Of a DNA stretch of 34,720 bases, positions 20,432 through 34,708 are shown piece after piece. The stretch's first letter is position 1; each line of letters starts with the position of its first letter. The stretch comes from an uncultured Sphingomonadaceae bacterium (lineage in GTDB: Bacteria > Pseudomonadota > Alphaproteobacteria > Sphingomonadales > Sphingomonadaceae), in contig CAIQHF010000043.1 in NCBI GenBank assembly GCA_903871605.1, forward strand, positions 1-34,720. Direction: 5' to 3'. The notes under the pieces are model-generated. The model was not told the DNA's origin and ran no database searches. It was given only the letters and a program-made list of their open reading frames with translations. A program made the translations under genes and the position numbers.

Positions 20432-20508
20432 CGCGACGCCGCCTCGAACAGCCGGATGCGCGCGACCGCCACGTCGGCGGTCCGCGCGGAGTCGAAACCG
20501 ATGTTCAT
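20428..20508 (-). CDS. Mini-ORF, 26 codons, coupled to acyl-CoA dehydrogenase
   Basis: ATG at 20508 is preceded by GGGAGAGAGGA, the best ribosome-binding sequence in this operon. It encodes 26 residues (MNIGFDSARTADVAVARIRL, then FEAASR) and stops at 20428-20430, overlapping the dehydrogenase ATG (ATGA). Almost all third codon positions are G or C, as in real genes here. It may be a translation-loading leader, a small protein in its own right, or the 5' remnant of a longer ancestral gene. In levulinate operons a small protein (LvaB) accompanies the kinase, but this one is far shorter, so I do not equate them. Confidence 0.45.
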   Translation of the reverse strand: MNIGFDSARTADVAVARIRLFEAASR

Positions 20509-20574
20509 TCCTCTCTCCCGATTATCCGGTTTCGCTAGACCGCCGGCACCGCGCTGGCAAGAATAATAGCCAAT

Positions 20575-20587
20575 ATCGTCCGACGAT
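20575..20587. promoter_or_regulatory. Operator site 1 for GntR/FadR-type regulator
   Basis: ATCGTCCGACGAT is a perfect palindrome except for its central base. It fits the T-N-G-T-NNN-A-C-N-A consensus of FadR-subfamily GntR regulators. It lies 66 bases upstream of the mini-ORF/acyl-CoA dehydrogenase start and immediately after the stop codon of the DUF5134-like gene. Its flanks (AAT on the left, CT on the right) are identical to those of site 2 at 24101-24113. Confidence 0.75.
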
Positions 20588-21172
20588 CTATCCCACCAGC
20601 AACATCCCAATCATGCCCACGTCCATCGCGACATGGGGGACGATCGACATCAGCGGCGCCGCTGTACGAAGGCGCTGCGGCAGCCTACCGGCGAAGACGG
20701 TCAGGGTCACGACGCTCGCCAGATCGAACAGGAAGAAAGCGGCGCACGCCCGTTCCAGCCAGACCAGCGGGTGCGGCATCGCCATCGCGCGCATCGGCGC
20801 GGGCGCCATCCCGACAATCAGCCACGCCATGAGCAACGCCGCCGCGACGTGGATAATCGCCGCGATCACGACGACGCTACGCTGGCCGGCGGGGGGCCGC
20901 CGCCGCAGCGCAGGAACGATCACGAGCAGCAGCGCGCACAGCGCGATCGCTGTCGCACTCGTCCGAGCGAGCGCGCCGGACCAGAGCGGCGTCATCATCG
21001 CCGCCATCGCGGCGTTCATCAGCAGGTGCGTGAATTCGGTCTCCCAGCCATAGCCAGCCAGCACGCGACGCCGCCCGCGCGCCAGCTGGCACAGCTCGAC
21101 GATGCCGATCAGGACCGCTGCGGCGGACAATGCCAGCAGCGCGTCGCGCAGCCAGACCGGAGCGGCGCTCAT
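20588..21172 (-). CDS. Six-pass membrane protein, DUF5134-like
   Basis: A 194-residue integral membrane protein with about six hydrophobic helices (starting near LRDALLALSAAAVLIG and ending PHVAMDVGMIGMLLVG at the C-terminus). Several helices carry His and Met at regular spacing (FTHLLMNAAMAAMM, MAMPHPLVWLER, VPHVAMDVGMIGM), which hints at heme or metal binding and fits DUF5134-type proteins as I recall them; the family call is tentative. The ATG at 21172 begins just ahead of the first helix. It lies 43 bases after the SDR gene, as the last member of the linalool-dehydratase-like operon, and its stop codon touches operator site 1. Confidence 0.75.
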   Translation of the reverse strand: MSAAPVWLRDALLALSAAAVLIGIVELCQLARGRRRVLAGYGWETEFTHLLMNAAMAAMMTPLWSGALARTSATAIALCALLLVIVPALRRRPPAGQRSVVVIAAIIHVAAALLMAWLIVGMAPAPMRAMAMPHPLVWLERACAAFFLFDLASVVTLTVFAGRLPQRLRTAAPLMSIVPHVAMDVGMIGMLLVG

Positions 21173-21215
21173 CGACGGTGGGCGGACATCCGCTCTGTCG
21201 GCCCCGTCGCGTCCG

Positions 21216-21980
21216 TCATGCCATGAGCCCACCGCAATTGGCGTGGAACACCTGGCCCGTCACGCACCCGGCGCGATCGGACGCGAGGAACGCCACGACC
21301 TCGGCGATCTCGCGTGGCTCGGCCAGGCGTCCGAGCGGCAGATTGCTGGTCACAGCAGCGGTCGCCCCCGTCGTGTCCACCTGCATCAGCGCGCGGACCG
21401 TCTCGGTCAGCGTCGGGCCCGCCGACACCGCGTTGACGCGGACGAGCGGCGCCGCCTCCGCGGCAGCCGCGCGGGTCAGCGCCTCGACACCGGCCTTGCT
21501 CGCGCCGTAGACGGACAGGCCGGGCGTCGGGAAGCGCGCCGCCATCGACGACATGTTGACGATCGCACCGCCGCCGCCCGCCCGCATCACGGGAATGGCG
21601 GCACGGCAGAGATTGAAGGTGCCGGCAAGATTGATCGCTATGCTGTCGGCGAACTGGCGGTCGTCCGTATGCTCGAGAAGCGCGGTCGGAAAGGCGCCGG
21701 CGATGTTGGCGACGATATCGAGCCGGCCGAAGCGCTGCATCGCGGCCTCGACCGCGCGCGTGGCGAGATCGCTGGCGGCGACGTCGCCGGCGACGGGCTC
21801 GACGCCCGTTCCCCGATCGATCGCGCGCGCGGCATCGGCGAGCCGAGTGGCATCCTGCCCGACGACGACGAGCGCCGCCCCGCGTTCCGCGAGTAGTTCC
21901 GCCACGGCACGGCCTATGCCGCGCGAGGCGCCCGTGACGATCGCGACCTTCCCGGCGAAGTCACCCTCACCATTCGCCAC
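21216..21980 (-). CDS. Short-chain dehydrogenase/reductase (SDR)
   Basis: A 254-residue classical SDR that oxidises an alcohol or reduces a ketone or aldehyde with NAD(P). The cofactor motif TGASRGIG, the NAG-equivalent NIAGAF, the active-site Ser in VNMSSMAARF, and the Y-x-x-x-K pair (Tyr158 and Lys162 in YGASKAG) are present. It starts with a GTG at 21980 that overlaps the 57-residue membrane-protein gene by 14 bases; no strong ribosome-binding site is seen, so coupling is likely. Being two genes after a linalool dehydratase/isomerase-like enzyme, it may oxidise the alcohol that enzyme forms (inference). Confidence 0.9.
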   Translation of the reverse strand: MANGEGDFAGKVAIVTGASRGIGRAVAELLAERGAALVVVGQDATRLADAARAIDRGTGVEPVAGDVAASDLATRAVEAAMQRFGRLDIVANIAGAFPTALLEHTDDRQFADSIAINLAGTFNLCRAAIPVMRAGGGGAIVNMSSMAARFPTPGLSVYGASKAGVEALTRAAAAEAAPLVRVNAVSAGPTLTETVRALMQVDTTGATAAVTSNLPLGRLAEPREIAEVVAFLASDRAGCVTGQVFHANCGGLMA

Positions 21981-22140
21981 GGCGCACCGCGGGCATCGGA
22001 TTGCGGCCGCGAAGCTTGCCGATCAGCGTCGCGGGATGCTCGCCCGGCCGCGCGCGCAACAGCCCCCAGTACAGGCCCCATCGCCGGACCGTCGCGAACG
22101 CCTGCGCGAGCAGATAGGCGGCGATGATGCAGCAGGCCAC
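21967..22140 (-). CDS. Small membrane protein (57 residues)
   Basis: A short frame from a GTG at 22140, three bases after the stop of the linalool-dehydratase-like gene, to a TGA at 21967. The 57 residues begin with one hydrophobic helix (VACCIIAAYLLAQAFATV) followed by a basic tail (LLRARPGEHPATLIGKLRGR). It fills the space between two operon genes and overlaps the SDR start by 14 bases, which supports a real gene. No family is recognised. The positive tail after the helix suggests a cytoplasmic C-terminus. It might anchor or assist the enzyme upstream. Confidence 0.55.
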   Translation of the reverse strand: MACCIIAAYLLAQAFATVRRWGLYWGLLRARPGEHPATLIGKLRGRNPMPAVRRGEW

Positions 22141-22143
22141 CGC

Positions 22144-24066
22144 CTAGGCGACCGGAACGAGGTGCAGTTCGAGGCGATTGGCGAGCATCACGTCGAGGCT
22201 CGCCGTGCCTTGCGCGTCCGCCACGATCTGCTCGCCGCTCTGCCGGACGCGGTAGGTCTGGCCCGGGACGAGCCTCGCGAAGCCGAGCCGCGTGCGGACT
22301 GCGTCGCCGCCGGGACGCAATACCAGGTCCAGCGCCTCGCCGTCGCTGACGGCGCGCGTCACGATGGTGTGCGGATAGACGGCCTCGGACAGGATCGGGC
22401 CGCGCGCCCACGCCTCGGGCAGGCCCTTGTTGACCATGTCGCGCACCGTGTTGCGCCCTGCCCACGACATGGCGTCGGCGATCCCCTCGCCATAGCGCTC
22501 GTCCATCGTCTTGCGGGTGGCCGCGATGATCGGCTCGTCGCCCATCTCCGCGGCCGCCCACAGCACCATCACCAGCGGATTGAGCTCGGGCCATTTGGAG
22601 AAGTCGGCGGGCTTGCGCGTATCCCAGCCGAGCGGCAATAGCCGGAAATCGAGCCCGCCGTCGGCGCCGACGCGCATGAAGTCCTGCTTGAGGATCTGCC
22701 ACAGCCGCTCCGCCTGCTCGGGCGCATGCGGGGTGAGGAAGCGGATGCCCCAGGTCTCGCCGAACAGCCCCGAAAGACTGGGCACCTGGAAGCCGAACGG
22801 CGCCGACGTGCACACCTTGATGCGCCCGTCGGGGAGCATCATCTCCTCGCGCATCGACTGCTCGAAGCGTTCGGCGATGGCATCCTCATAATGCGTGCCG
22901 TGCCGCTTGTCGTGGAAGCGCAAGGCGGTCCGGCCGACGAGATTGCACATCGAATAGATCCAGCGCGGCTCGCACGGGAACCAGCCGAAATCGTAGCGCT
23001 GATAGTTCTTGACCACCTCTTCGAGCAGCGACGCGTGATTATAGGGAAACGCCGTCTTGTCGTCCCAGCGGAAGGTGAGCGCACCGGGTTTGGCGAAGGG
23101 CTGCGTGCCGCTCGACGTCTCGAACATGCCGAGCGATACGCCGAGAAACCCCGACAGCATGATATTGTCGATGTGGACCGGATTCTTGTCGGGCTTGAAA
23201 TTGCCCCACAGGCTTTCCCAATACCAGTAATTCCATGTCTTCCGGTCGATATGCTTGCGGATCAGGTTTTCCTGCGCCGTGTTCAGATAGCCATGGAACG
23301 CGGGAAGCTGCGTATATTGGCCGAGCGACAAATTCCACGACATCGTGCAGATCTGGTAGCGTAGCGCGCCGTCCTGCCAGGTGTCGTTCATCGCAAAGCC
23401 GGTCCACGAGTCGACCGGCTGGAGCGCGAGATCGAGCATGCGGCGGAACTCGCCGATCTGCCCCGCCGGCATCTCGTCGCGGGCTTCGATCGGATGATCG
23501 CGCAGCAGTGGTTCGGCCGCGGCGATCCTGACGTTCCATTTCTTCGCGCGCGCCCTGGCGGCGGCGAAATTGCCACGGCGGCGCAGCGCCAGGCCACCAT
23601 GAACCGCGGCCATCGCGGCCGGCACGCCGATCTCCATCCAGGCGACGCCCGGCGATCCCTTTATCCACGCCGCCGAGAGCAAGGCGGTGCCGATCAGCAC
23701 GCCGGGTGGTCCCAGGATCACGCCACGCGCCCACCAGATGAACAGAATGACGAGGAATGCCGCGAACGAGGCGAGCGCGAACGCGACGCCCAGGACGCCG
23801 CCCGCGAAGAGGAAGCCGCCACCAGGCACGATCAGGCCGAGCCCGAAGGCCTTCCATTGGGAGCCCATCTGCAGCAGGCAGGGCAGCACCCCGATCACGA
23901 ACAGCGCCGCGAGCGCGGCATAGGACATCCTCAGCCGGCGCGCCGTCAGCGGACCATGCATCCGCGTGAGATCGGGGATCGGGGGGATGCGATCGATCAG
24001 CTTCGGGGGGAGCGGGGCCGTGCCCCGCCCCATATGTCCGACAGCCTCGACGAACTGCGTACTCAT
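22144..24066 (-). CDS. Membrane-anchored linalool dehydratase/isomerase-like protein
   Basis: A 640-residue protein. The N-terminal 180 residues hold about five hydrophobic segments (MSYAALAALFVIGVLPCLLQ, GGVLGVAFALASFAAFLVILF and others). The C-terminal part resembles the linalool dehydratase/isomerase of Castellaniella defragrans: the pair Cys365/Cys374 in FPCEPRWIYSMCN has the same nine-residue spacing and CEP...CN frame as the catalytic cysteines of that enzyme, followed by LRFHDKRHGTHYEDA. The family removes or adds water at, or isomerises, tertiary allylic alcohols. The histidine that I recall in the KGHLNLMYG segment of the model enzyme appears as Phe (SGFLGVSLG), so the substrate may differ. 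ATG at 24066 has GGGGGAGAGG upstream. First gene of an operon with operator site 2. Confidence 0.72.
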   Translation of the reverse strand: MSTQFVEAVGHMGRGTAPLPPKLIDRIPPIPDLTRMHGPLTARRLRMSYAALAALFVIGVLPCLLQMGSQWKAFGLGLIVPGGGFLFAGGVLGVAFALASFAAFLVILFIWWARGVILGPPGVLIGTALLSAAWIKGSPGVAWMEIGVPAAMAAVHGGLALRRRGNFAAARARAKKWNVRIAAAEPLLRDHPIEARDEMPAGQIGEFRRMLDLALQPVDSWTGFAMNDTWQDGALRYQICTMSWNLSLGQYTQLPAFHGYLNTAQENLIRKHIDRKTWNYWYWESLWGNFKPDKNPVHIDNIMLSGFLGVSLGMFETSSGTQPFAKPGALTFRWDDKTAFPYNHASLLEEVVKNYQRYDFGWFPCEPRWIYSMCNLVGRTALRFHDKRHGTHYEDAIAERFEQSMREEMMLPDGRIKVCTSAPFGFQVPSLSGLFGETWGIRFLTPHAPEQAERLWQILKQDFMRVGADGGLDFRLLPLGWDTRKPADFSKWPELNPLVMVLWAAAEMGDEPIIAATRKTMDERYGEGIADAMSWAGRNTVRDMVNKGLPEAWARGPILSEAVYPHTIVTRAVSDGEALDLVLRPGGDAVRTRLGFARLVPGQTYRVRQSGEQIVADAQGTASLDVMLANRLELHLVPVA

Positions 24067-24100
24067 GCTGACCTCTCCCCCGCTTGTGCGAGTTTCGAAT

Positions 24101-24113
24101 ATCGTAGAACGAT
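24101..24113. promoter_or_regulatory. Operator site 2 for GntR/FadR-type regulator
   Basis: ATCGTAGAACGAT keeps both TCGT and ACGA half-sites around a 3-base spacer and shares its flanks (AAT left, CT right) with site 1. It lies 34 bases upstream of the linalool-dehydratase-like start, in the 87-base gap between that gene and the stop of the TonB-dependent receptor gene. Confidence 0.75.
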
Positions 24114-24153
24114 CTCGTCGGATACGCAATGTCGCCGAGCGGCGACCCCCGGG

Positions 24154-26649
24154 TCAGTAGCGCCAGCTGACCTGGACGCCGTAGGTGCGCGGCATGCCGG
24201 CATAGCGCACGATCGACGCCAGCGTGTCCTGCACATTGGTCCAATAATAGGTGTTGCCGACATTGTTGACGAACACGCCGAGTCGCAGCTTGCTGCTCGG
24301 CAGCTCGACTCCGGCGCGCAGATCGACCAGCGCATAGGCCTTGATGTCGAACCGCGGATCGGCGGCGACGAAGGCGGTCGTCGTGTTGGCCAACGCGGTC
24401 GACGTCTTGCTGTTGTAGGTGAGTGATGCGCCGAGATACGGCTTGATCCGGTCGCTGATGGCGAAATCATATTCGGCATCGCCCGTCATCGTCAGCTTCG
24501 GCGCATAAGGGAATTTCTGACCCGCGAAATTCGCCTTCTGCGCGAACGCGTCATAACCGACGAAGTTGAGCACCTTGGTATCAATATAGGTGGCGCCGAG
24601 GCTGAGGCGAACGCCCGTGACGGGGCGCGCGAGGATCGACGCTTCGAGCCCCCAGAGCCGGCTCTTGGGGATCTGCACCAACCCGTCGAGCGTGCCGAAC
24701 ACCGGATCGGGCAGGCGGCCGCGGAGCTGCTTGTCCTTATAGTCGTAGTAGAAGCCGGCGAAGGTCAGCTCGACGCGGCGATCGAAGAAGGGCGTCTTGA
24801 TGCCGGCCTCATAGGCGAGCACCGACTCCTGCTTGACCGGCGCGTAGCCGGTGTAGCTCGCCACCGACGCGGTCGGGAAGCTTCCCGACTTATAGCCCTT
24901 GCTGACGCGCGCATAGAGCAGCGTGCCGCCGTCGAACTTGTAGTTGAGGCCGCCGTTCCACGAGACATTATGCTCGTTGAGCTGATCGAACAGCGCGGGG
25001 TTGTACGGCTGGAGACTGGCGTTGAGCGTGATGCACCCGCCTTCCTGGACATGGGTGCCGAAAAGCGCGTTCCACCAGATCGCGGTGGCACCGCCGAAGT
25101 CGTGCGTGCAGCCCTCGAAACTGCGATGGCTGTCGGTATAGCGGGCGCCGCCGATCACGGTCAGGTGATCGGTCAGCTTATATTCGGCGTTGGCGAAGGC
25201 GGCGAGATCGCGAATATTCTGCCGCGAGTCATTATAGGTCAGCACGCCGCGCGGGGCGCCCGGGATCATGTATAGCGGGTTTGACGACGGGCCCTGGCTG
25301 AAATTGTAGAACAGATTGTCGTAGGTGTCGGACTTGCTGTAGTTGCCGCCGACGATGAACGTCAGCCGGTCATATTTTCCGCTGACCCGCACTTCCTGCG
25401 AGAAGTTCTTGATGTAGCCGGTCGTGTTGGTGTCCGCCGTGAAATAGCGCGTCCCGTCGAAATCCTGAACCGAATCGGTGTTGTAGCGCGAATAGGCCGA
25501 GATGCTCGTCAGGGTCAGGTGATCGTCGAGTTCGAGATCGCCGCGCAGGCTGCCCTGATAGAAGTAATCGTTGCGCTTCGGACGCCGGCCGAAGATGCCA
25601 TAGCCCCAGTCCGCCGCGCGCGCATTGTGTGGCGCGACCGGGTATGCGCGGAAATTGTCGGCGTCGGGGCTCCCGCAGGTGCCCGCGCGTGAGGCGCCGC
25701 AATCGTCGGAGACGAACTGCGCCGCCTGGGTGTCTCCCGTATCGCGCCAGCCGTTGATGTTGAGCTGGAACTTCAGCTTGTCGCTCGGATCCCAGTCGAG
25801 CAGCACGCGCCCGTCAAACTCGCGCTTGCGACCGAGCGAGTCGTTGCGCGTATAGCTTTCCTGCCAGGTACCAGAATCGATCGTGCGCACCGCGATCCGC
25901 GCCTTGATCGTGTCCGACAGGGGCCCGCTGACGAACGCCGACACGATCCCGGTGTCGAACCGGCCGAAGCTGCCGTCGACGCCGGCGGTGAAATGATCGG
26001 TCGGCTTGCTCGCGATATAGTTGATCGCGCCGCCGGTCGTGTTCTGGCCGAACAATGTGCCCTGTGGCCCCTTCAGCACTTCGACGCGCTCGATATCGAA
26101 CGCCACGCCGCGCGTCATCGCCGCGAACGGGTAGGCGATCTCGTCCGAATAGATCGCGACCGTTGGCGATGCGGACAATGTCGTCTCATAGAAGCCGACG
26201 CCGCGCAGCGTATAGACGGGCGTATTGAACTGCGAGGGTTGAACGGTCAGGCCGGGGACGATCTTGCCCAGATCGGTGGGCGAAGTGATGATGCGTTTGA
26301 CGAGCGTGTCGCCGGTCTCGGCGGTGATCGACAGGCCGACATCATTGATGTTCTGCGCGCGCTTGTTCGCGGTGACCACGATCTCGCCGACCGCGCTCGA
26401 AGCGGCATGATCGGCCGCCGACGCCTGCGCCGCGGATGCGTCGGTAGGCGTCGATACGGGCGGCGCGACCGCGGGCGGCGCGCTCGGCATCCCCGTCGCC
26501 TGCGCGACTTCGGTGTTGGCGGCGGCCGCAGGCGGCGTCGCGGGCGCGGCGGCGGACTGGGCAAGCGCCGGCGCCGCGGCGGCGATGATGGCGGCGACCG
26601 ACGAGCCGACGATGGCCGACCGACGGAATGCGCGAATGCGATGCTGCAT
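24154..26649 (-). CDS. TonB-dependent outer-membrane receptor
   Basis: An 831-residue outer-membrane transporter driven by TonB. The signal peptide (RRSAIVGSSVAAIIAAAAPALAQ) is followed by an Ala/Pro-rich linker, the plug domain from about residue 85 (VGEIVVTANKR, YTLRGVGFYETTLSASPTV, RVEVLKGPQGTLFGQNTTGG), and a 22-strand-type barrel ending in an aromatic residue (GVQVSWRY). The plug type is that of sphingomonad receptors used for plant, aromatic and terpenoid compounds as well as siderophores; no signalling domain is present. ATG at 26649 has GGAGAGGGGA upstream. It is divergent from the GntR regulator, sharing the gap with operator site 3, so its ligand is probably the inducing compound. 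Confidence 0.93.
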   Translation of the reverse strand: MQHRIRAFRRSAIVGSSVAAIIAAAAPALAQSAAAPATPPAAAANTEVAQATGMPSAPPAVAPPVSTPTDASAAQASAADHAASSAVGEIVVTANKRAQNINDVGLSITAETGDTLVKRIITSPTDLGKIVPGLTVQPSQFNTPVYTLRGVGFYETTLSASPTVAIYSDEIAYPFAAMTRGVAFDIERVEVLKGPQGTLFGQNTTGGAINYIASKPTDHFTAGVDGSFGRFDTGIVSAFVSGPLSDTIKARIAVRTIDSGTWQESYTRNDSLGRKREFDGRVLLDWDPSDKLKFQLNINGWRDTGDTQAAQFVSDDCGASRAGTCGSPDADNFRAYPVAPHNARAADWGYGIFGRRPKRNDYFYQGSLRGDLELDDHLTLTSISAYSRYNTDSVQDFDGTRYFTADTNTTGYIKNFSQEVRVSGKYDRLTFIVGGNYSKSDTYDNLFYNFSQGPSSNPLYMIPGAPRGVLTYNDSRQNIRDLAAFANAEYKLTDHLTVIGGARYTDSHRSFEGCTHDFGGATAIWWNALFGTHVQEGGCITLNASLQPYNPALFDQLNEHNVSWNGGLNYKFDGGTLLYARVSKGYKSGSFPTASVASYTGYAPVKQESVLAYEAGIKTPFFDRRVELTFAGFYYDYKDKQLRGRLPDPVFGTLDGLVQIPKSRLWGLEASILARPVTGVRLSLGATYIDTKVLNFVGYDAFAQKANFAGQKFPYAPKLTMTGDAEYDFAISDRIKPYLGASLTYNSKTSTALANTTTAFVAADPRFDIKAYALVDLRAGVELPSSKLRLGVFVNNVGNTYYWTNVQDTLASIVRYAGMPRTYGVQVSWRY

Positions 26650-26766
26650 AAAATCCCCTCTCCATTCGCCGTTCGCCCGCCTGTTCGACGGATCGCTCGG
26701 CTGGCGCACAGACGCGCGCAACCCGGCTTGGAAGTTAACATCGCATATCCCGATTTTATCGTCAAT

Positions 26767-26779
26767 GTCGTTCGACGAT
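26767..26779. promoter_or_regulatory. Operator site 3, shared by receptor and regulator genes
   Basis: GTCGTTCGACGAT has intact TCGT and ACGA half-sites and one mismatch in the outermost pair. It lies in the 226-base divergent gap, 117 bases from the TonB-receptor start and 96 bases from the regulator start, allowing control of the receptor and autoregulation. The gap holds no gene. Confidence 0.75.
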
Positions 26780-26875
26780 ATCGATCGATGAAACCGACCG
26801 ACCTTGTTTCATCGCAGCATATGGACGCGGTTTCTCCTTCACCTTACAAGCCGTTGCCATGAGGAGCCGGCCCCA

Positions 26876-27607
26876 ATGACATCGATCGCCGCGTTAGCAC
26901 CTGAAAAACCGACACGAGTTGGCGCGGACGACCTCGCCGCGGGGGCGCCGAGCGCGACCGACAAGGTCACCGAGGCGATCACGCGGGGGATCCGCGCGGG
27001 CATGTTCGTTCCCGGCCAGCATCTGCTCGAACCCGAACTCACCCGCCGGCTGGGGATCAGCCGCGGCTCGCTTCGCGAGGCGCTCAAGCATCTTGCCGCG
27101 GCGGGGATCGTGACGCTCAATCGCTATCGCGGCGCCTATATAGGCGTGCTCGATCGCAAGTCGGTGCTCGATCTGCTCGACACGCTCGAACCGCTGGCGC
27201 GACTCGCCGCGCGCCTTGCGGCCGAACATTGCGACACCGACGCGGCGCGCGCGCGAATGCGCGAGACCGCCGAGGCGATCGACGATGCGGGCCGCCGCGG
27301 CACGCGCGTCGCCTATCTCGAGCAGCGCCGGCATTTCTACGACACGATGGTCGAAATCGGCGGGAATCGGGAATTGGCGCGCGTGATGCCGCTGTCGCGC
27401 ACCGACCTGTTCCGCGCGCAGGTCGAGACGGTGCAGAGCGAGCAGCAGCGCGCCAGGCATGCCGCGGGCTATGCCCGGATCGCGCAGGCGATCATCGATC
27501 GCGATCCGGCCGCCGCGGACCGTGCCGTCAAGAAGCATTTCGACGGGACGCGCAAAACGATGGACGAACTGCCCGCCGAGGCATTCCCGACCCGCGAGGC
27601 CGAGTAG
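26876..27607 (+). CDS. GntR family transcriptional regulator (FadR/FCD type)
   Basis: A 243-residue regulator. The N-terminal winged helix (about 30-90) shows VTEAITRGIRAGMFVPGQHL, LTRRLGISRGSLREALKHL and GIVTLNRYRGAYI. The C-terminal all-helical FCD ligand-binding domain (about 95-235) includes YLEQRRHFYDTMVEIGGNREL and a late His in VKKHF, candidates for the metal/ligand pocket. ATG at 26876 has GAGGAG 10-15 bases upstream. Regulators of this subfamily bind TNGTNNNACNA, which matches the five TCGT-NNN-ACGA sites around it. It is probably a repressor released by a carboxylate or acyl-CoA intermediate (inference), and it divides the two halves of the cluster. Confidence 0.93.
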   Translation: MTSIAALAPEKPTRVGADDLAAGAPSATDKVTEAITRGIRAGMFVPGQHLLEPELTRRLGISRGSLREALKHLAAAGIVTLNRYRGAYIGVLDRKSVLDLLDTLEPLARLAARLAAEHCDTDAARARMRETAEAIDDAGRRGTRVAYLEQRRHFYDTMVEIGGNRELARVMPLSRTDLFRAQVETVQSEQQRARHAAGYARIAQAIIDRDPAAADRAVKKHFDGTRKTMDELPAEAFPTREAE

Positions 27608-27649
27608 CGCCACAGCCCACCGGCGGTCGAAGTAATTCTGCTAGACGAA

Positions 27650-27662
27650 ATCGTCCGACGTT
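27650..27662. promoter_or_regulatory. Operator site 4 (imperfect)
   Basis: ATCGTCCGACGTT matches the other sites on the left half and has one mismatch on the right (ACGT instead of ACGA). An extra half-site, ACGA at 27645-27648, lies just to its left, so ACGA-AA-TCGT overlaps it. It is 46 bases upstream of the EthD-family gene, in the 101-base gap after the regulator gene. Confidence 0.6.
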
Positions 27663-27708
27663 GTTAGGCCATCCTCCGACCTCGTAAACGGGGCATGAGG
27701 AGAGGCGG

Positions 27709-28062
27709 ATGATCACCATATCGGCGGTGTATCCCAATCGGGCGGGCAGCCGCTTCGATGTCGATTATTATCGCGAGCGCCACGCGCCCTTCGCGCAGGC
27801 GTTGCTGGCGCCGCACGGCCTCGTCGGGCTGCGCATCAGCCAGGGCGCGTCCGGCCTCGACGGCGCGCACCCCGCTTTCTGGATGATCAGCGAGATGCGT
27901 TTCGCCTCGCGCGAGGCGTTCGATCGGGCGATCGCGACCTGCGGCGCGGCGCTGTTCGCCGATGCCCCCAACTACACCGATGTCGAACCCATACTGCAAT
28001 TCAACGCGCCAAGCGTCGAATTCGCATCCCCCACCTCCACGGAGAGCCACCCAGATGCGTAA
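27709..28062 (+). CDS. EthD family protein
   Basis: A 117-residue dimeric alpha+beta-barrel protein of the EthD type (ITISAVYPNRAGSRFDVDYYRERHAPFAQALL at the N-terminus is typical: phi-x-Y-P, then F-D-x-D-Y-Y-x-x-x-H). EthD-like proteins occur beside ether- or polyketide-degrading enzymes; their exact role is often unknown, some being cyclases or isomerases. GGAGAGGCGG precedes the ATG. The gene overlaps the next by 8 bases, so the two are coupled, and it is the first gene of a three-gene operon behind operator site 4. Confidence 0.82.
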   Translation: MITISAVYPNRAGSRFDVDYYRERHAPFAQALLAPHGLVGLRISQGASGLDGAHPAFWMISEMRFASREAFDRAIATCGAALFADAPNYTDVEPILQFNAPSVEFASPTSTESHPDA

Positions 28063-29239
28063 TTTCGTCCGCAACGAGATGAGCGATATCGGCCAGCTGA
28101 TCGCGCTCGACGAGCATCTCAACCACCAGATCGCCGACACCTTCGCGTCGACCGCGACCTCCGAGCATAGCTGGACCGAGAAGATCTGGTCGGCGATGGT
28201 GCGCCGGGACGGCACGATGTCGATCGATTTCGGCCTCGGCCGCTACCATAATCGCGGCGTGATGGACGGCTGGGGCGCGGTCGCGCGCGGACGGTCGCAA
28301 TGGACGGTGCGCGCCAGCCGCGAGCTGCGCGACGATCCGATGATCACCTCGGTCGGCCCGCTGACCTACGAGATCATCGAGCCGCTGCACAAGGTCCGCT
28401 ACGCGCTGGCGAAGAACGACATCCAGCCGATCGCCTACGACATCACCTTCACCTCGGACATGCCGCCCTTTTTCGAGGACCGCCACAAGCAGCGCGAGCG
28501 CGACGGCTTCCGGATCGGTTCGGACGTGATCCGCTATCATCAGATCGGCACGCCACAGGGCTGGGTCGAGATCGAAGGCGAGCGCATCGAAGTCCGCCCC
28601 GAGGACTGGACCGAATATCGCGATCACAGCTGGGGCACGCGGCTCGACGTCGGCGCGCACAATCCCGACATCCGCCCGACCTCGGACTTCGGCGACGTCA
28701 AGTTCGGCGAAGGCGAGTTCGTGCTGATCTGGAGCCCGTTCATGCTGGTCTCGCCCGATGGCGAGAAGATCGCCTATCATTTCTACTATCAGTCGAAGCA
28801 GGGACGGATCTTCTATTCGTCGGGCTATCGCAATCATCCCGACGGCACGCAGGAGAAGGTCGCGCGCGTCCGCCCCGAGCTCAACTATGACGACCGCACG
28901 CGCCGGCTGCTCGGGGGCCGCGTGCATTTCGACATGCTGCAGGGCGGCACGCACACGGTCGAGATCGAGGTTGCGGGCGAGACCGCGGTGCATCTCGGGC
29001 CCGGCCTCTATCTCGGCTTCGACGGCAAGAAGCACGGCTCGTGGAAGGGCGCGCTCGAGATGGACGGCGAGATGTTCGCCGACACGCTCGACATCCCGAC
29101 GCTCAAGCGCATCCGCCAGGTGCGCGACTGCCCGATCACCGTGCGCGAGGGCGACGCGGTCGGCCACGGCATCATGGAGACGGTGATCCATGGCAGCCAT
29201 CCCGAACTCGGCCTCACCGCCGCCAACTCGCTGATCTGA
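28055..29239 (+). CDS. Hypothetical two-domain beta-rich protein (DUF7064/7065-like)
   Basis: A 394-residue cytoplasmic protein without signal peptide or membrane segments. It is rich in Trp, Asp, His and Arg and has recurring beta-strand patterns: SIDFGLGRYHNRGVMDGWGAV, WTEYRDHSWGTRLDVGAHN, YHFYYQSKQGRIFYSSGYR and VHLGPGLYLGFDGKKHGSWKG. The internal pattern and the Trp-Gly motifs recall AttH/lipocalin-like lipid-binding barrels and the DUF7064/DUF7065 pair as I remember it; this is tentative. ATG at 28055 has GGAGAGCC upstream and overlaps the EthD gene. It is followed 10 bases later by a kinase-fold gene. A lipid- or terpenoid-binding or modifying role would fit the cluster but is not shown. 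Confidence 0.75.
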   Translation: MRNFVRNEMSDIGQLIALDEHLNHQIADTFASTATSEHSWTEKIWSAMVRRDGTMSIDFGLGRYHNRGVMDGWGAVARGRSQWTVRASRELRDDPMITSVGPLTYEIIEPLHKVRYALAKNDIQPIAYDITFTSDMPPFFEDRHKQRERDGFRIGSDVIRYHQIGTPQGWVEIEGERIEVRPEDWTEYRDHSWGTRLDVGAHNPDIRPTSDFGDVKFGEGEFVLIWSPFMLVSPDGEKIAYHFYYQSKQGRIFYSSGYRNHPDGTQEKVARVRPELNYDDRTRRLLGGRVHFDMLQGGTHTVEIEVAGETAVHLGPGLYLGFDGKKHGSWKGALEMDGEMFADTLDIPTLKRIRQVRDCPITVREGDAVGHGIMETVIHGSHPELGLTAANSLI

Positions 29240-29249
29240 GGAGCACCCC

Positions 29250-30233
29250 ATGGCGCGCGACACAGCCCATATCGCCGAAGGTCTCCGCCGCTACCTGCCG
29301 CGCGGCGAGCGCATCACCGGCGTCAAGACGCTCTCGGCCGGCCATTCGAACGAGACCTATCTGGTGCTCGGCACCGACGAGATCCTGCGCATGCCCCCGT
29401 CCGAGGAGGGGCTTCTGCCCCCTTACGACATGGCGCGCCAGCATGCGATCCTGACGGCGGTCCGCGCGCACAGCGCGGCGGTTCCGCTGCCCGACATGCT
29501 CGAACTGTGCGAGGATCCGTCGGTGATCGGGGATCCCTTCTTCCTGATGTCGTGCGTGCCGGGCGAGGCGTTCGAATATAGCGTGCCGGACTGGCTCGCG
29601 GCCGATCCGGACGACGGCGCCGACAGCGTCTGCCGGCAATGGTTCGGCGCGGTGACCGCCCTGCATGCGATGCCCGTCGCGTCGTTTCCGGCCGGAGGAC
29701 GCTCGGCCCGGGAGGAAGCGGCGCATTGGCTCGAGGTCGCGCGCGGCGCGGATGCGGACAAGCGCCTGATCGACGTGCTCGAGGATCTGGAGCGCCGTCC
29801 GCCAGCCGCCTCCGGTCCCGCGACGCCCGTCCACGGTGATCCGAAACACGGCAATTGCCTGTGGCACGAAGGCCGCCTCACCGCGCTGCTCGACTGGGAA
29901 ATGGCACAGGTTTCCGAGCCGCTACTCGATCTGGGCTATATCCTGATGTTCCACGATCAGGGTGCGGCATCGCTCGCCAATGCAGGGTTCGACCTGCCCG
30001 GCTGGTGGTCGCCCGAGCGGATGACCGCCGAATGGGAGCAGGCCACCGGCCGAACCGCGGTCGACATCGCCCGCTACACCGTGCTTGGCCAGGCAAAGGT
30101 CTCGGCGATCATCGCGCTCGGCTATCATCTGTTCACCAGCGGGCGCACCAAGGATGTGCGCTTCGAGGGCTGGGGATCGGTGCTGCCCGCGTATAACGAT
30201 CTACTCGTCGCGCGCGCGATGGCGGCGGCATAG
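29250..30233 (+). CDS. Phosphotransferase family protein (APH fold), second copy
   Basis: A 327-residue aminoglycoside-phosphotransferase-fold kinase, distinct from the one at 18174-19244. The start GVKTLSAGHSNETYLVLG, the catalytic loop VHGDPKHGN (Asp197) and the metal motif LLDWEMAQVSEP (Asp215) are intact. GAGGAGCACCCC precedes the ATG. Last gene of the EthD operon, closed by a strong hairpin at 30247-30281. Kinases of this branch often phosphorylate CoA-thioesters or small alcohols rather than antibiotics. Having two such kinases in one regulon suggests two hydroxyl groups to process or two stages of the pathway (inference). Confidence 0.85.
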   Translation: MARDTAHIAEGLRRYLPRGERITGVKTLSAGHSNETYLVLGTDEILRMPPSEEGLLPPYDMARQHAILTAVRAHSAAVPLPDMLELCEDPSVIGDPFFLMSCVPGEAFEYSVPDWLAADPDDGADSVCRQWFGAVTALHAMPVASFPAGGRSAREEAAHWLEVARGADADKRLIDVLEDLERRPPAASGPATPVHGDPKHGNCLWHEGRLTALLDWEMAQVSEPLLDLGYILMFHDQGAASLANAGFDLPGWWSPERMTAEWEQATGRTAVDIARYTVLGQAKVSAIIALGYHLFTSGRTKDVRFEGWGSVLPAYNDLLVARAMAAA

Positions 30234-30246
30234 CTGACCCATCCGG

Positions 30247-30281
30247 CGGAGCTGCGTGCCCGCGGCGGGCGCGCAGCTCCG
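30247..30281. terminator. Bidirectional terminator hairpin
   Basis: CGGAGCTGCG (30247-30256) pairs with CGCAGCTCCG (30272-30281), with a further inner stem GCCC/GGGC (30258-30261 with 30267-30270). It fills the 49-base gap between the convergent kinase gene and the biotinyl-domain-like gene. There is no T-tract, but this is the strongest stem in the window. Confidence 0.65.
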
Positions 30282-30282
30282 G

Positions 30283-30669
30283 TCAGTGAAGCGTCGCCAA
30301 TATGTCCTCGAATTCGACGAGCGCGCCCGCACGGCCGACGTGGCGCCCAATCGTGCCGGCGCGGTCGGCGATCAGGTCGATCGACTCGCCGAGCAACTCG
30401 ATCACGCCGTAGCGCTCGCCTGGAGCGATCGGCGTACCGATCGCGGCAAGCTCGACGAGCGTACCGAGATGCGGTGCGGTCAGCATCGTCTCGTCGACAT
30501 GCGCCGCCGCCGCCTCGACGATCCCGAGCATCGGATTGGCGTGCCCCGGCTCGCGCGCGACGAATATCTCGACCGCTTCGCCGCGGACATGGCAGCTCGC
30601 CCAATCCGACTTGAGGAAGAGATCGAAGAAGGCGGCTGCCTCGTCGAGCGGGGACTGGGTGATGGTCAT
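30283..30669 (-). CDS. Biotinyl/lipoyl-domain-like protein without the attachment lysine
   Basis: A 128-residue protein. Residues 62-127 read like a biotin carboxyl carrier domain: TAPHLGTLVELAAIGTPIAPGE corresponds to the S-P-M-x-G-T...V-x-x-G-x-x-V-x-x-G pattern, and DLIADRAGTIGRHVGRAGALVEFEDIL to the second half. At the hairpin where the carrier has E-A-M-K-L, this protein has ELLGE (residues 91-95), so Gly94 stands where biotin would be attached. It therefore cannot be biotinylated at the usual place and may be a structural or binding subunit. Start ATG at 30669 overlaps the stop of the dikinase-like gene (ATGA). Last gene of a four-gene operon. Confidence 0.7.
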   Translation of the reverse strand: MTITQSPLDEAAAFFDLFLKSDWASCHVRGEAVEIFVAREPGHANPMLGIVEAAAAHVDETMLTAPHLGTLVELAAIGTPIAPGERYGVIELLGESIDLIADRAGTIGRHVGRAGALVEFEDILATLH

Positions 30670-32399
30670 GCCGCCTTCGCCTTGTGGTCCGAGAGGATCG
30701 CGAGCAGCGCGGCGAGTGCGGGCTGCGTGACGATCGTGGTGACGCCGGCCGCATGCGCGGCGCGCGCCGCGACGGGTGCGGCGAGAAGCCGTCCACGCGC
30801 CTTGCTGTGGCCGGCAAGCGCCTTCTCGAGCGCATCGGCCTCGATCGCGTCGACGAGATGATCGACGTCGATCCCGTCCGTGCCGATATCGTCCGCCACG
30901 ACCGCGACGGGGCTGCGCGCATCCGCCCAGCCGATCAGCGTTGCGAGTATCGGATCGGCGCGCTCGTCGGGTCCGGTCACCGCGAGGCGATCGGCATAGA
31001 CCGCGCCGCTGCCGTCGACCGTGATGATCCGTCCCGCAAGCGCCATCACCGCGCTGCCGGCGCCGACCACGCAGGGCCGGCCTAGCGCGCGGCTGACGAC
31101 GGCGGCGTGGCTGGTGGCGCCGCCCTGCGCCGTCACGATTCCGCGCGCCGCGATCATGCCGTGGATATCGTCGGGGCTGGTCGTCTCGCGGATCAGGATG
31201 ACGTCCTCGCCCGCTTCGGCGCGGCGTTCGGCCTCGTCGGGATCGGCGACCGCGATCCCGCTCGCCACGCCCGGACAGGCGCCCTCGCCCGTCAGCAGCA
31301 ACGTCGCGTCGGCCGCCGCGCCCGCATCGAGCCGCGGCAGCAGGATCGCCGCGGCCTGCTCGGGGCTGACTCGGGTCAGCGCGGTATCGACGTCGATCAG
31401 CCCTTCGCCGACCATCTCGACCGCGATCCGTGCCGCCGCTTCGGGAGAGCGCTTGGCCGCACGCGCCTGGAGCAGGAAGAGCCGCCCCTTCTGCACGGTG
31501 AACTCGATGTCCTGCACGTCGCCATTCTCGCGCTCGAGCAGCGCGCAGGCGGCGAGCAGCGCGTCGTGCGCCGGCGCCACGCGCTCGCGCATCGCGTCGA
31601 GCGGCAACGGCGTGAAGCGGCCCGAGACGACGTCCTCGCCCTGCGCGCACGGCAGATATTCGCCAAACGGCCTGGCCTCGCCCGACAGCGGATTGCGGCT
31701 GAACAGCACGCCGGTGCCGCTGTCCTCATCGAGATTGCCGAACACCATCGCCTGGATGGTCACCGCGGTCCCCATGTCGTCCGCTATGCCATTATGCTGG
31801 CGATAGCGTTTGGCGCGGCGCGTGTTCCAGCTGTCGAACACCGCGCGGATCGCCGCATCGAGCTGGTCGCGCGGCGAGACCGGCATGTCCTCGCCCGCGG
31901 CATCGCGGATCGCGCTGCGCCAGGTGTCGAGACCGGCATGCGGATCGAGATGATCGAGCGGCGCCTTGAGCACGATCGCGGCATAGAGTTCGTAGAAGCG
32001 GCGATGCGTGTCCCTGGCGAAGCCCGGCTGCCCGGTCTCCGCGGCGAGCGCCGCCTCCCCCGCCCCGTCGATGCCGAGATTGAGCACCGTGTCCATCATC
32101 CCCGGCATCGAGATCGCCGCGCCCGAGCGCACCGAGAGCAGCAGGCGTTGCTCGCCCTGCGCGAAGCGCCGTCCGGTCTTCTGCTCGAGCCAGGCCAGCC
32201 CAGCGTCGATCTCCTCGACCAGCCCCGCCGGCATCGCGCCATCGGCGAGATAGGCGTTGCACGCCGCTGTGGTCACGACGAACGCCGGGGGAACGTCGAG
32301 CCCCATGCCGAGCATGCGCGCGATCGACCACGCCTTGCCGCCGATCAGCGCCTTGTCGGGAAGCGTCGAGCCATCGAGGCGAAGTGTCCAGCCGGTCAT
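30666..32399 (-). CDS. Truncated pyruvate-phosphate-dikinase-like enzyme (ATP-grasp + phosphohistidine domain)
   Basis: A 577-residue protein matching the first two-thirds of pyruvate phosphate dikinase. The ATP-grasp part shows LIGGKAWSIARM, SVRSGAAISMPGMMDTVLNL, MGTAVTIQAMVFGNLDEDSG and FSRNPLSGEARPFGEYL. The swivelling domain shows GGATSHAAVVSRALGRPCVVG with phosphorylatable His431. The C-terminal PEP/pyruvate barrel (about 300 residues in the 870-890-residue enzyme) is absent and is replaced by a short alpha/beta tail of about 100 residues. The acceptor must therefore be another molecule or another subunit, as in phenylphosphate synthase or rifampin phosphotransferase (known analogues). 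The ATG at 32399 overlaps the preceding stop. The operon has a separate second phosphohistidine domain. Confidence 0.85.
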   Translation of the reverse strand: MTGWTLRLDGSTLPDKALIGGKAWSIARMLGMGLDVPPAFVVTTAACNAYLADGAMPAGLVEEIDAGLAWLEQKTGRRFAQGEQRLLLSVRSGAAISMPGMMDTVLNLGIDGAGEAALAAETGQPGFARDTHRRFYELYAAIVLKAPLDHLDPHAGLDTWRSAIRDAAGEDMPVSPRDQLDAAIRAVFDSWNTRRAKRYRQHNGIADDMGTAVTIQAMVFGNLDEDSGTGVLFSRNPLSGEARPFGEYLPCAQGEDVVSGRFTPLPLDAMRERVAPAHDALLAACALLERENGDVQDIEFTVQKGRLFLLQARAAKRSPEAAARIAVEMVGEGLIDVDTALTRVSPEQAAAILLPRLDAGAAADATLLLTGEGACPGVASGIAVADPDEAERRAEAGEDVILIRETTSPDDIHGMIAARGIVTAQGGATSHAAVVSRALGRPCVVGAGSAVMALAGRIITVDGSGAVYADRLAVTGPDERADPILATLIGWADARSPVAVVADDIGTDGIDVDHLVDAIEADALEKALAGHSKARGRLLAAPVAARAAHAAGVTTIVTQPALAALLAILSDHKAKAA

Positions 32400-32998
32400 T
32401 CGTCGCGCACCGTGCCCATGATGCGGAGCAGGTCCTCGTGCAGCTCGAACCAGACGGTGTGGTAGCTTTCTCGGCGGATGTCGCTCACCCATTCGATGTC
32501 GCCATCCTCGGCGCGTTCAAGCGCCTCGGTCAGCTTGCGCAGATAGACGCCGAGACGCGGCAGCTTCGCCGCCAGCGCGCGCAGCACCGGCTCGATCTTC
32601 TCGTGGACGTCGGCGAGGCGGTCGATGACCTTCTGGTCATAGGCTTCGTCGCCATGATCGTTGGCGACGCGCTCGCCGCGCAGCTCCATCGTCTGCCAGT
32701 CAGTGACGACCTGCTTGAGCGTGCGATTGACCAGTTCGAAGCGTTGATAGGCCGCCTCGAACGCCGCATCGCCGCGGATCGCGCCATAGAGGCCGCCATA
32801 GCTCGCCTCGAGCGCGACGCGCGCCAGCGGGGTCAGCGTGAAGCCGCCCTTCGCCTCGAGCGCGCGACCCGACGCGACCGCGCCGGCAAGCTGCGCGGCG
32901 ACCACGGGCTCGGGCAGCTGGACCAGATCGGCGACCGCTGCGGGCGTCGCGAGGCGCTTGATGGCGAGGCCATGATAGGCGAGGTGGCGCGGGGTCAT
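32396..32998 (-). CDS. Hypothetical helical protein in PEP-utilising operon
   Basis: A 200-residue, mostly helical protein of no recognised family. The first 60 residues could form a winged helix (HLAYHGLAIKRLATPAAVADLVQL...ALEAKGGFTLTPLARVALE). The rest is long amphipathic helix with many charged residues (ELVNRTLKQVVTDWQTMELRG, VIDRLADVHEKIEPVLRALAAKLPRLGVYLRKLTEALERAEDGD). It may be an adaptor subunit joining the phosphohistidine-domain protein and the dikinase-like enzyme. Its start at 32998 and stop at 32396 both overlap neighbours by 4 bases, so it is an integral part of the operon. Confidence 0.8.
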   Translation of the reverse strand: MTPRHLAYHGLAIKRLATPAAVADLVQLPEPVVAAQLAGAVASGRALEAKGGFTLTPLARVALEASYGGLYGAIRGDAAFEAAYQRFELVNRTLKQVVTDWQTMELRGERVANDHGDEAYDQKVIDRLADVHEKIEPVLRALAAKLPRLGVYLRKLTEALERAEDGDIEWVSDIRRESYHTVWFELHEDLLRIMGTVRDE

Positions 32999-33744
32999 CG
33001 TGCGGCCTCCGTCGGCAGGCGCCAGATCCGCCCGACCTTCTCGGTGCCCGACTGATAATCCTCGGTGGTCTTGGCGGGCGCGGTCGCCTCGATCTCGACC
33101 AGGTCGCCGTCGTGCAGCCCGCTGATCCGCGAGTTCATCAGACATGGAATGCCATATTCGCGCGTCAATATGCCGAGATGCGAGCGCACCGACCCGCCCG
33201 CACAGATCACGCCGGCGAACTGGTCGATGATCGGCGCGGTCAGCGTGCCGCCCGAATCGTCGATCACCGCGATCGTGCCGGGCGGGACGCCGTCGGTGAG
33301 ATAGGCGAGCACGCGCGCGTTGCTGCGGATGTAGCGCGCGGTGCCGATGACGTTCGCGTCATGACGCACGACATTGTCGCCGACGCCGCGCTGTTCGCGG
33401 CCGCGATCGTCGGCCGAACCGACGACCGCATTGGGATGCTCGAAGGCGAAATCGGCGGCATCGTCCGCGCCCGCGGCAGGCCTGTAGGCCTCGGGCCGCT
33501 CGGCCGCCGAGATCGACGCCGACCAGTCGAAGCGATGACCGCTTGCGAGGATGCGCGTCTCGACATGGGCGATGTCGGCGGCGGTCACCGTATCCGAGCC
33601 TTCCGCGACGAAGCTCGCCCAGTCGCCGTCCCATTCTGAAAAGCGGCGGCGCACGACATCGCGGACGAGCTCGAGCGTCGCCTCGACGAGCGGGCTCGCC
33701 GGGGGATCGACACGACGAAGGCGATCGATCGGCAACGACTTCAT
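32995..33744 (-). CDS. Stand-alone PEP-utilising (phosphohistidine swivel) domain protein
   Basis: A 249-residue protein. The C-terminal 110 residues match the PEP-utilisers mobile domain: VPPGTIAVIDDSGGTLTAPII, then GVICAGGSVRSHLGILTREYG with His189 where the phosphorylated histidine of PEP synthase and dikinases lies, then SGLHDGDLVEIE. The N-terminal 140 residues are unrecognised and include a helix-rich start (ASPLVEATLELVRDVVRRRFSEW). ATG at 33744 lies 13 bases after GAGAGGG; an in-frame TTG at 33753 is at a better distance and may be the true start. First gene of the operon, divergent from surE across operator site 5. Confidence 0.82.
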   Translation of the reverse strand: MKSLPIDRLRRVDPPASPLVEATLELVRDVVRRRFSEWDGDWASFVAEGSDTVTAADIAHVETRILASGHRFDWSASISAAERPEAYRPAAGADDAADFAFEHPNAVVGSADDRGREQRGVGDNVVRHDANVIGTARYIRSNARVLAYLTDGVPPGTIAVIDDSGGTLTAPIIDQFAGVICAGGSVRSHLGILTREYGIPCLMNSRISGLHDGDLVEIEATAPAKTTEDYQSGTEKVGRIWRLPTEAAR

Positions 33745-33843
33745 GATGCGCAATGTCCCTCTCGCGACGGGCGCCGTACCGCGCCTCTTGTCGAGCTCAT
33801 ATCTGCCGGGCTGCCGTCGCCCTGTCAACTCCGTGAGATCGAT

Positions 33844-33856
33844 TTCGTAGGACGAT
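33844..33856. promoter_or_regulatory. Operator site 5, between PEP-utilising operon and surE
   Basis: TTCGTAGGACGAT has intact TCGT and ACGA half-sites with one mismatch in the outer pair. It lies in the 169-base divergent gap, 57 bases from the surE start and 99 bases from the phosphohistidine-protein start. It ties both transcripts to the GntR-type regulator 6 kb away. No gene lies in this gap. Confidence 0.7.
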
Positions 33857-33913
33857 TTTATTGGACGCGGTCCTTCGCCGATGGCACATCGTTCCAAACG
33901 GAGAGGATATAAG

Positions 33914-34708
33914 ATGACGGCTTCTGGCAAACCACGCGTGCTGATCGTCAACGACGACGGCATCGACGGGCCCGGCATAAAATTGCTCGAGGAGCTCGTC
34001 GGCCGGTTCACCGACGACATCTGGGTGGTCGCCCCCGACGAGGAGCGTTCGGGCGCCGGGCACTCGATCTCGGTCTCGCATCCGATCCGGCTGAGGCAGC
34101 GCGACGAGCGCCATTTCGCGATCAAGGGCTCGCCGACCGATTGCGCGCTGCTCGGCATCCACGAGCTGCTCGACCGCAAGCCCGACATCCTCTTCTCGGG
34201 GATCAACGCAGGCCCCAATCTCGCCGAGGACATCACCTATTCGGGCACCTGCTCCGCGGCGATGGAAGGGGCGATGCTCGGCATTCCCTCGGTCGCGCTC
34301 AGCCAGATGCTCGCCTATCAGCAGTTCGTCCACTGGGACACGTCGCGCGCGCTGCTGCCCCCGATCATCGAGCGGCTGATGACGTGCGACTGGCAGCCGG
34401 GCAGCTTCGTCAACGTCAACGTCCCCAATCTGCCCGTCGACCAGATCACCGGCACCCGCCTCACCCGCCAGGGTCGTCGCCCGCCCGGCAGCTATCTGCC
34501 CGTGCGCCGGGTCGACGAGCGCTTCGTGCCCTATTACTGGATCAAGATCGCGCAGCAGCCCGGCGGAACCGAGCCGGGCACCGATCTCGAGGCGGTGCGC
34601 GACGGTGCGGTCTCGATCACCCCGCTCCAGCTCGACATGACCGATCATGCGATGGCGGGCGGCCTCGAGCGCGCCTTCGCCGACCTGCTCGGAACCGCAG
34701 CAGCGTGA
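33914..34708 (+). CDS. surE: SurE-family 5'/3'-nucleotidase (phosphatase)
   Basis: A 264-residue divalent-metal phosphatase of the SurE family, which removes phosphate from nucleotides and other phosphomonoesters. The metal site VLIVNDDGIDGPG, RSGAGHSISVSHPIRL, the SGINAGPNLAEDITYSGT block and AAMEGAMLGIPSVALS are intact. The ATG at 33914 has GGAGAGG upstream. Housekeeping surE usually lies near pcm and nlpD; this copy stands opposite a phosphotransferase operon behind a shared operator, so it is probably a pathway-specific paralogue that dephosphorylates an intermediate (inference). Only 12 bases follow it in the window. Confidence 0.9.
   Translation: MTASGKPRVLIVNDDGIDGPGIKLLEELVGRFTDDIWVVAPDEERSGAGHSISVSHPIRLRQRDERHFAIKGSPTDCALLGIHELLDRKPDILFSGINAGPNLAEDITYSGTCSAAMEGAMLGIPSVALSQMLAYQQFVHWDTSRALLPPIIERLMTCDWQPGSFVNVNVPNLPVDQITGTRLTRQGRRPPGSYLPVRRVDERFVPYYWIKIAQQPGGTEPGTDLEAVRDGAVSITPLQLDMTDHAMAGGLERAFADLLGTAAA

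Follow-up and report, generated by a model that had tools for sequence, protein, structure and literature searches.

For regulators of the FadR subfamily of the GntR family, the available text of PMC4494728 reports GT-N3-AC as the operator signature, with TKGT/ACMA as the commoner consensus, and places lone GntR sites close to the centre of divergent gaps. Here we analyse a 34,720 nt stretch of DNA from an uncultured Sphingomonadaceae bacterium (the window, meaning the whole stretch, which belongs to contig C43 in a genome of 4.28 Mb) in which five short palindromes surround a gene for a GntR/FCD regulator. We determined by computation the sites, their conservation in relatives, their specificity, and the co-occurrence of regulator and cluster. 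On these sequence grounds, 19-bp palindromic elements are predicted to be the operators of the regulator at 26876–27607, forming a local, autoregulated regulon, a reading to which we give a probability of roughly 0.88. The regulon is of a known kind, and no description of it or of its pathway was found in the open-licence literature searched.

The original prediction had named five palindromes in the window, and all five are present, four exact and one with a single mismatch, each one base further along than had been given. A scan of the whole window found TCGTNNNACGA exactly at 20576, 24102, 26768 and 33845, and the one-mismatch palindrome TCGTCCGACGT at 27651. The full element is 19 bp, roughly AATATCGT-NNN-ACGATATT, and the sites (listed without strand, with the scores of a matrix described below) are:

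Site 1, 20572–20590: AATATCGTCCGACGATCTA; ACAD start 145 bp downstream; 23.6 bits.
Site 2, 24098–24116: AATATCGTAGAACGATCTC; Ldi start 36 bp downstream; 24.8 bits.
Site 3, 26764–26782: AATGTCGTTCGACGATATC; in the middle of the divergent TonB-receptor/GntR gap, where it would serve autoregulation; 22.6 bits.
Site 4, 27647–27665: GAAATCGTCCGACGTTGTT; asymmetric; EthD start 48 bp downstream; 20.2 bits.
Site 5, 33841–33859: GATTTCGTAGGACGATTTT; in the divergent PEP-utiliser/SurE gap; 25.5 bits.

A sixth site (28.6 bits) lies to the right of the window at contig position 42521, before a biotin-carboxylase operon. Site 3 is 119 and 98 bp from its two flanking starts, approximately the gap centre, and site 5 is 101 and 59 bp from its own. 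A weak sigma-70-like promoter match (26735–26762) adjoins site 3; that scan found 4 matches where 1.5 were expected and is not relied on. As had been noted, sites 1 and 2 have common flanks (AATATCGT...ACGATCT), and all five sites lie in promoter gaps once gene starts are set by homologues and ATG codons, plain open-reading frame (ORF) calling putting site 2 within an overlong TTG-start ORF. By the gene ends used here the intergenic share of 17392–34708 is 961 bp (5.5%). Against the four exact copies in the window, 300 first-order Markov resamplings gave 0.66 on average (four reached in 1/300), and for the same four in 20.4–33.9 kb the average was 0.32 (four reached in 0/1000). The further claim that the window holds no other copies is right for exact copies and wrong for those with up to one mismatch, which number 13 vs 16.3 expected, i.e. 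the one-mismatch pattern is not enriched.

A regulator of the predicted type is indeed encoded in the middle of the cluster:

26876–27607, forward strand: GntR/FCD transcriptional regulator, 243 aa, PF00392 and PF07729; proposed binder of the sites.

Both domains exceed their cut-offs, PF00392 (GntR winged helix) with 47.0 bits (cut-off 27) and PF07729 (FCD domain) with 57.6 bits (cut-off 24.3). The E. coli FadR equivalog models scored well below theirs (TIGR02812, 23.9 bits vs 249.2; NF003444, 22.2 vs 189), and for the structure model (mean pLDDT 86.8) the nearest structure is 3ihu, with E. coli FadR ranking 30th. The earlier designation as GntR/FadR-type is accordingly kept in its GntR/FCD part, by domains, whilst the nearest structures (3ihu, McbR, PmiR, VanR-type) are not E. 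coli FadR. The DNA-binding region of the regulator is nearly invariant across 19 sequences, and the sites contain the GT-N3-AC core found in operators of FCD-type GntR regulators. They fit TNGTNNNACNA, the form of the FadR-subfamily consensus first invoked for them, but not the commoner TKGT/ACMA boxes given in the available text of PMC4494728, sites 1–5 having C where that consensus has K, and G where it has M. The FCD metal site reported for some members (Asp/Asn plus three His) appears to be absent from the regulator: Arg151, Tyr155, Tyr199 and His221 apparently occupy its positions by our own residue mapping, all four are invariant in nine sequences, and only His221 is kept from the metal ligands.

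The 19-bp element around the 11-mer palindrome is specific. A 19-bp matrix was trained on exact-core sites before the Ldi, GntR and PEP-utiliser genes of relatives (20 distinct sites of 31), with the window's genome excluded; the training contained no promoters of the types to which sites 1, 4 and 42521 belong. Over 54 kb of this genome, the six best matches were 42521, 33845, 24102, 20576, 26768 and 27651 (28.6–20.2 bits), the next scoring 12.7 bits, and omitting the Ldi, GntR or PEP-utiliser sites from training in turn left the top six unchanged; the earlier matrix mentioned below ranks these six first as well. The best matrix match in 200 Markov resamplings averaged 11.0 bits. Genome-wide, the pattern DTCGTNNNACGAT, which site 4 does not fit, has 21 distinct sites, against 0 on one strand and 1 on the other for its reversed control. 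Scored with an earlier matrix (21 distinct sites of 32, including G070:C18:3177, which lies upstream of the 556-aa ORF, c556, of the carboxylase operon), the five cluster members among the 21 take the top five places, at least 23.4 bits vs at most 17.6 for the other 16. Twelve of those 16 fall in called ORFs, among them C44:40586, which probably lies ahead of the gene's real start, and two of the five cluster sites (24102 and 42521) also fall in called ORFs, with overlong starts. C3:32603 (17.6 bits, intergenic) and C44:40586 (15.0 bits, its downstream gene resembling a response regulator by eye) are further possible, unproven members. A one-mismatch 13-mer was not used (at least 106 sites vs 9 of a reversed control whose dinucleotides differ). 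The expectation that the motif would favour promoters over genes across the genome is borne out by the full element, and would fail for the short 11-mer.

A protein search of 199 family genomes (the window's own included) found regulator orthologues of 65–74% identity in six others, and a second collection provided 15 regulator loci, 14 of them at 60–75% identity, from Sphingopyxis, Sphingobium, Novosphingobium, Aquisediminimonas and metagenome-assembled genomes; L063 and L064 (taken as the same as G177 and G035) and L074 (a partial, 41% match) were left out. Relatives largely keep the gene order. At the 14-bit threshold used for all per-promoter counts, a site was present upstream of Ldi in 12/12 relatives, upstream of GntR in 15/17 and in the PEP-utiliser/SurE gap in 11/11, counts which are not independent of the matrix, as most of those sites trained it; on direct inspection these sites have exact TCGTNNNACGA cores. 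Upstream of c556 there is a match in 6/6 relatives, G070:C18:3177 included, and stretches obtained after training scored 26.5, 27.0 and 26.0 bits where sites were expected. Operon-internal genes had no upstream site (SDR 0/10, APH1 0/7, APH2 0/15, PPDK 0/10). The 407,804 bases from relatives contain 61 matches of at least 14 bits. Target genes are preceded by 55 of these at no more than 450 bp, and no match falls inside a mapped cluster gene, the mapping comprising cluster genes only. G070 has weaker extra matches upstream of a receptor. When the SurE, GntR and Ldi upstream regions were aligned, the site was the most conserved 17-column window in all three gaps, with no other window equally conserved (0/168, 0/267 and 0/197, respectively); these alignments cover selected subsets (10, 9 and 8 sequences), and the G177 row in the Ldi alignment ends before its site.

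Regulator and cluster also occur together. PEP-utiliser orthologues were found in eight of the 199 family genomes, seven of which encode the regulator (an orthologue of at least 65% identity, or the window's own). None of the three congeners in the sample has a PEP-utiliser match at E 1e-20, thus the distribution of the cluster is patchy.

A number of observations weigh against a regulon of this extent, and they are gathered here with the alternatives on which they bear. The bare 11-mer is hardly enriched genome-wide (54 copies vs 45 of the reversed control) and, not being specific, was rejected as the regulon motif. As 2/200 resamplings reached 20.0 bits and one reached 23.4, a single site at the level of site 4 is not beyond chance; the matrix scan of this genome covers 54 kb rather than the whole, and 6/61 matches in relatives are elsewhere than before target genes. 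That the palindromes arose by chance, or form RNA hairpins or terminators, and are not bound by a protein would agree with how common an 11-mer of eight fixed bases is in this genome and with the unenriched one-mismatch matches in the window. It is nonetheless highly improbable: the sites are conserved islands within otherwise diverged gaps, they are placed before and between divergent genes, and none of the four terminator-like calls in 20400–34000 coincides with a site.

Conservation is also uneven between promoters. The GntR upstream regions of L072 and L073 have no site (2/17), L073 having one instead in its TonB-receptor/DUFx gap. Upstream of EthD only 5/12 relatives reach 14 bits, with five more at 12.7–12.9 bits in an asymmetric, weaker form, and L060 and L062 have a different weak site; by eye, the asymmetric GAAATCGTY..AC[GA]C is found before EthD or the Rv3169-family gene in 14/16 relatives, not in L060 or L062. 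No relative (0/5) has a conserved site upstream of ACAD at 14 bits. A smaller regulon, in which sites 2–5 and 42521 are functional and site 1, in front of ACAD, arose by chance or has decayed, would account for this last result, and in G177, G035 and G088 ACAD is on the same strand downstream of Ldi, where it could be read from the Ldi promoter. Site 1, however, is intergenic and scores its 23.6 bits under a matrix that excludes this genome, and we regard the smaller regulon as doubtful, although the most serious of the alternatives. The ACAD/APH/ECH operon is probably also a member in this genome. Held-out matrix, synteny, footprinting and co-occurrence support the original prediction of one catabolic unit under common control, with site 1 weakly supported.

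The eighth PEP-utiliser genome, G108, is a single negative case, its genes just 39–59% identical: its GntR match is just 15.7 bits, partial, at E 0.018, and no site exceeds 12.9 bits, that one being within a gene. Its sub-cluster (G108:C1:574514-583481, L119) comprises PEP-utiliser, c556-type, CoA ligase, 201-aa-type, PPDK and carboxylase genes, mostly at that identity, without regulator and without operator. In G177, G035, L069 and L071 a second GntR, 46–49% identical, adjoins surE, and L066 has a partial one. The sites could be operators of another regulator, such as this surE-adjacent paralogue present in some relatives or a factor not linked to the cluster; that the cluster GntR is the binder, like repression, inducer and substrate, is an inference. 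Another regulator is nevertheless unlikely. The window's genome encodes no other GntR close to the cluster's own (its next own match is 29% among the matches listed), yet it has all six sites, the GntR promoter itself holds a strong site in most relatives, and GT-N3-AC is the signature which PMC4494728, in its available part, reports for the FadR subfamily.

The genes and operons next to the sites are:

17392–20431, reverse strand: ACAD operon, with ACAD (19241–20431), the ACAD11-type kinase APH1 (18174–19244) and the enoyl-CoA hydratase ECH (17392–18174).
20588–24066, reverse strand: Ldi operon, with Ldi (22144–24066), SDR (21216–21980) and a DUF5134 protein (20588–21226).
24154–26649, reverse strand: TonB-dependent receptor.
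27709–30233, forward strand: EthD operon, with EthD (27709–28062), an Rv3169-family protein (28055–29239) and the kinase-like APH2 (29250–30233).
30283–33744, reverse strand: PEP-utiliser operon, with a PEP-utiliser domain protein (32995–33744), a 201-aa protein (32396–33001), a truncated PPDK (30666–32399) and a 128-aa protein (30283–30669).
33914–34708, forward strand: SurE-family protein.
C43:34712-42505 (L013:712-8505), reverse strand, right of the window: carboxylase operon, with its site at 42521.

The last entry shows that the limits of 17 kb first set for the regulon were too narrow. This operon encodes a thiolase, a CoA ligase, a PYC/OADA-type carboxyltransferase, a biotin carboxylase, a biotin carrier and c556, for which no Pfam or NCBIfam match was obtained, and it is present in all four relative stretches of at least 40 kb (G177, G021, G035 and G088) at 62–80% identity, the carrier at 46–55%. 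PPDK matches NCBIfam PRK05878 with 667.9 bits (cut-off 456), its best PDB match spanning residues 21–503 of an 876-residue chain, and His189 of the PEP-utiliser protein is invariant in seven sequences. The 201-aa protein belongs to no family; its confident model (pLDDT 89.8) has an N-terminus that reads as winged-helix-like, with no significant solved relative, winged-helix folds matching at E 0.017 or worse. The pair of Rv3169-family and APH-like genes (28055–30233) resembles the M. tuberculosis Rv3168-Rv3169 operon, for which the available text of PMC5340868 reports negative regulation by the TetR-like Rv3167c. Elsewhere in the window, 62–1120 is a bacterial gene of the deoxyhypusine synthase family (PF01916).

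Other FCD regulators sit on their operators as dimers acting as repressors and are released by an effector. By analogy, a dimer of the cluster regulator would repress the TonB receptor, the Ldi-SDR operon, the EthD/Rv3169-family/APH operon, the PEP-utiliser/PPDK operon, surE and the biotin-carboxylase operon until freed by a pathway intermediate, and this release would jointly turn on the uptake and breakdown of a single compound that is hydrophobic and possibly of isoprenoid type.

As to that compound, Ldi matches PF18566 with 248.7 bits (cut-off 26.1) and has weak similarity to the solved Ldi 5hlr (profile E 2.3e-7), with the CEP....C stretch kept. APH1 and ACAD match the two halves of ACAD11 (8v3u, 8v3v), residues 6–333 and 379–769. 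ACAD10/11-type proteins combine a hydroxyacyl-CoA kinase with a phosphate-eliminating dehydrogenase. As a precedent for such activation, the available text of PMC8449060 describes a kinase that phosphorylates a steroid side chain at its tertiary alcohol. As Ldi-type proteins include linalool isomerase (PMC4791888, available text), together with the ACAD11 likeness and the steroid-kinase precedent, we favour an isoprenoid or tertiary alcohol as substrate, with low confidence; no tie of geosmin or linalool to the cluster was found in the literature searched. A tentative outline of such an undescribed sphingomonad pathway would have a TonB receptor and an Ldi/Lis-like isomerase act first, on an isoprenoid or a tertiary alcohol. 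Hydroxyl or enol groups might then be activated through phosphorylation by ACAD11-type kinases and by a barrel-less PPDK together with a separate protein of the phosphohistidine type, a pyruvate-carboxylase-type biotin enzyme might carboxylate a later intermediate, and one GntR with a non-metal FCD pocket might sense the ligand and switch all of these. The operator set draws a precise and testable limit around a catabolic unit made up of enzymes that would otherwise receive unrelated annotations (TonB receptor, linalool isomerase-like enzyme, dikinase, SurE and carboxylase), and it indicates which genes are worth deleting, which regulator should be purified and what kinds of compound to try.

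Compared with known systems, ACAD11 has as two halves of one chain what are here two separate genes, APH1 and ACAD. The linalool isomerase Lis (Thauera linaloolentis) and Castellaniella Ldi, as described in the available text of PMC4791888, have in common with the window's Ldi the Ldi domain and a similar length (640 vs 644 aa); the sequence is weakly similar to the solved Ldi, and a linalool/geraniol activity is predicted at most. For the regulator, 3ihu, a GntR of Ralstonia eutropha JMP134, is the closest fold (36–37% identity, TM 0.85–0.88 by target length) and, reading the alignment, apparently also has the Arg/Tyr/Tyr/His set at its FCD pocket. McbR (4p9f), PmiR (7xp0) and Atu1419/VanR are also among the closest solved folds; Atu1419 has its own zinc site of Asn and three His (PMC7797058, available text), which is mostly replaced in the window's regulator. 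The gene content of the regulon is not among that given in the available text of PMC4494728. Against the FCD/FadR-subfamily regulons described there, our locus differs in its half-site, TCGT instead of the commoner TKGT, and agrees in the winged helix-turn-helix plus FCD architecture, the GT-N3-AC palindrome, the single site in a divergent gap and the site at the regulator's own promoter.

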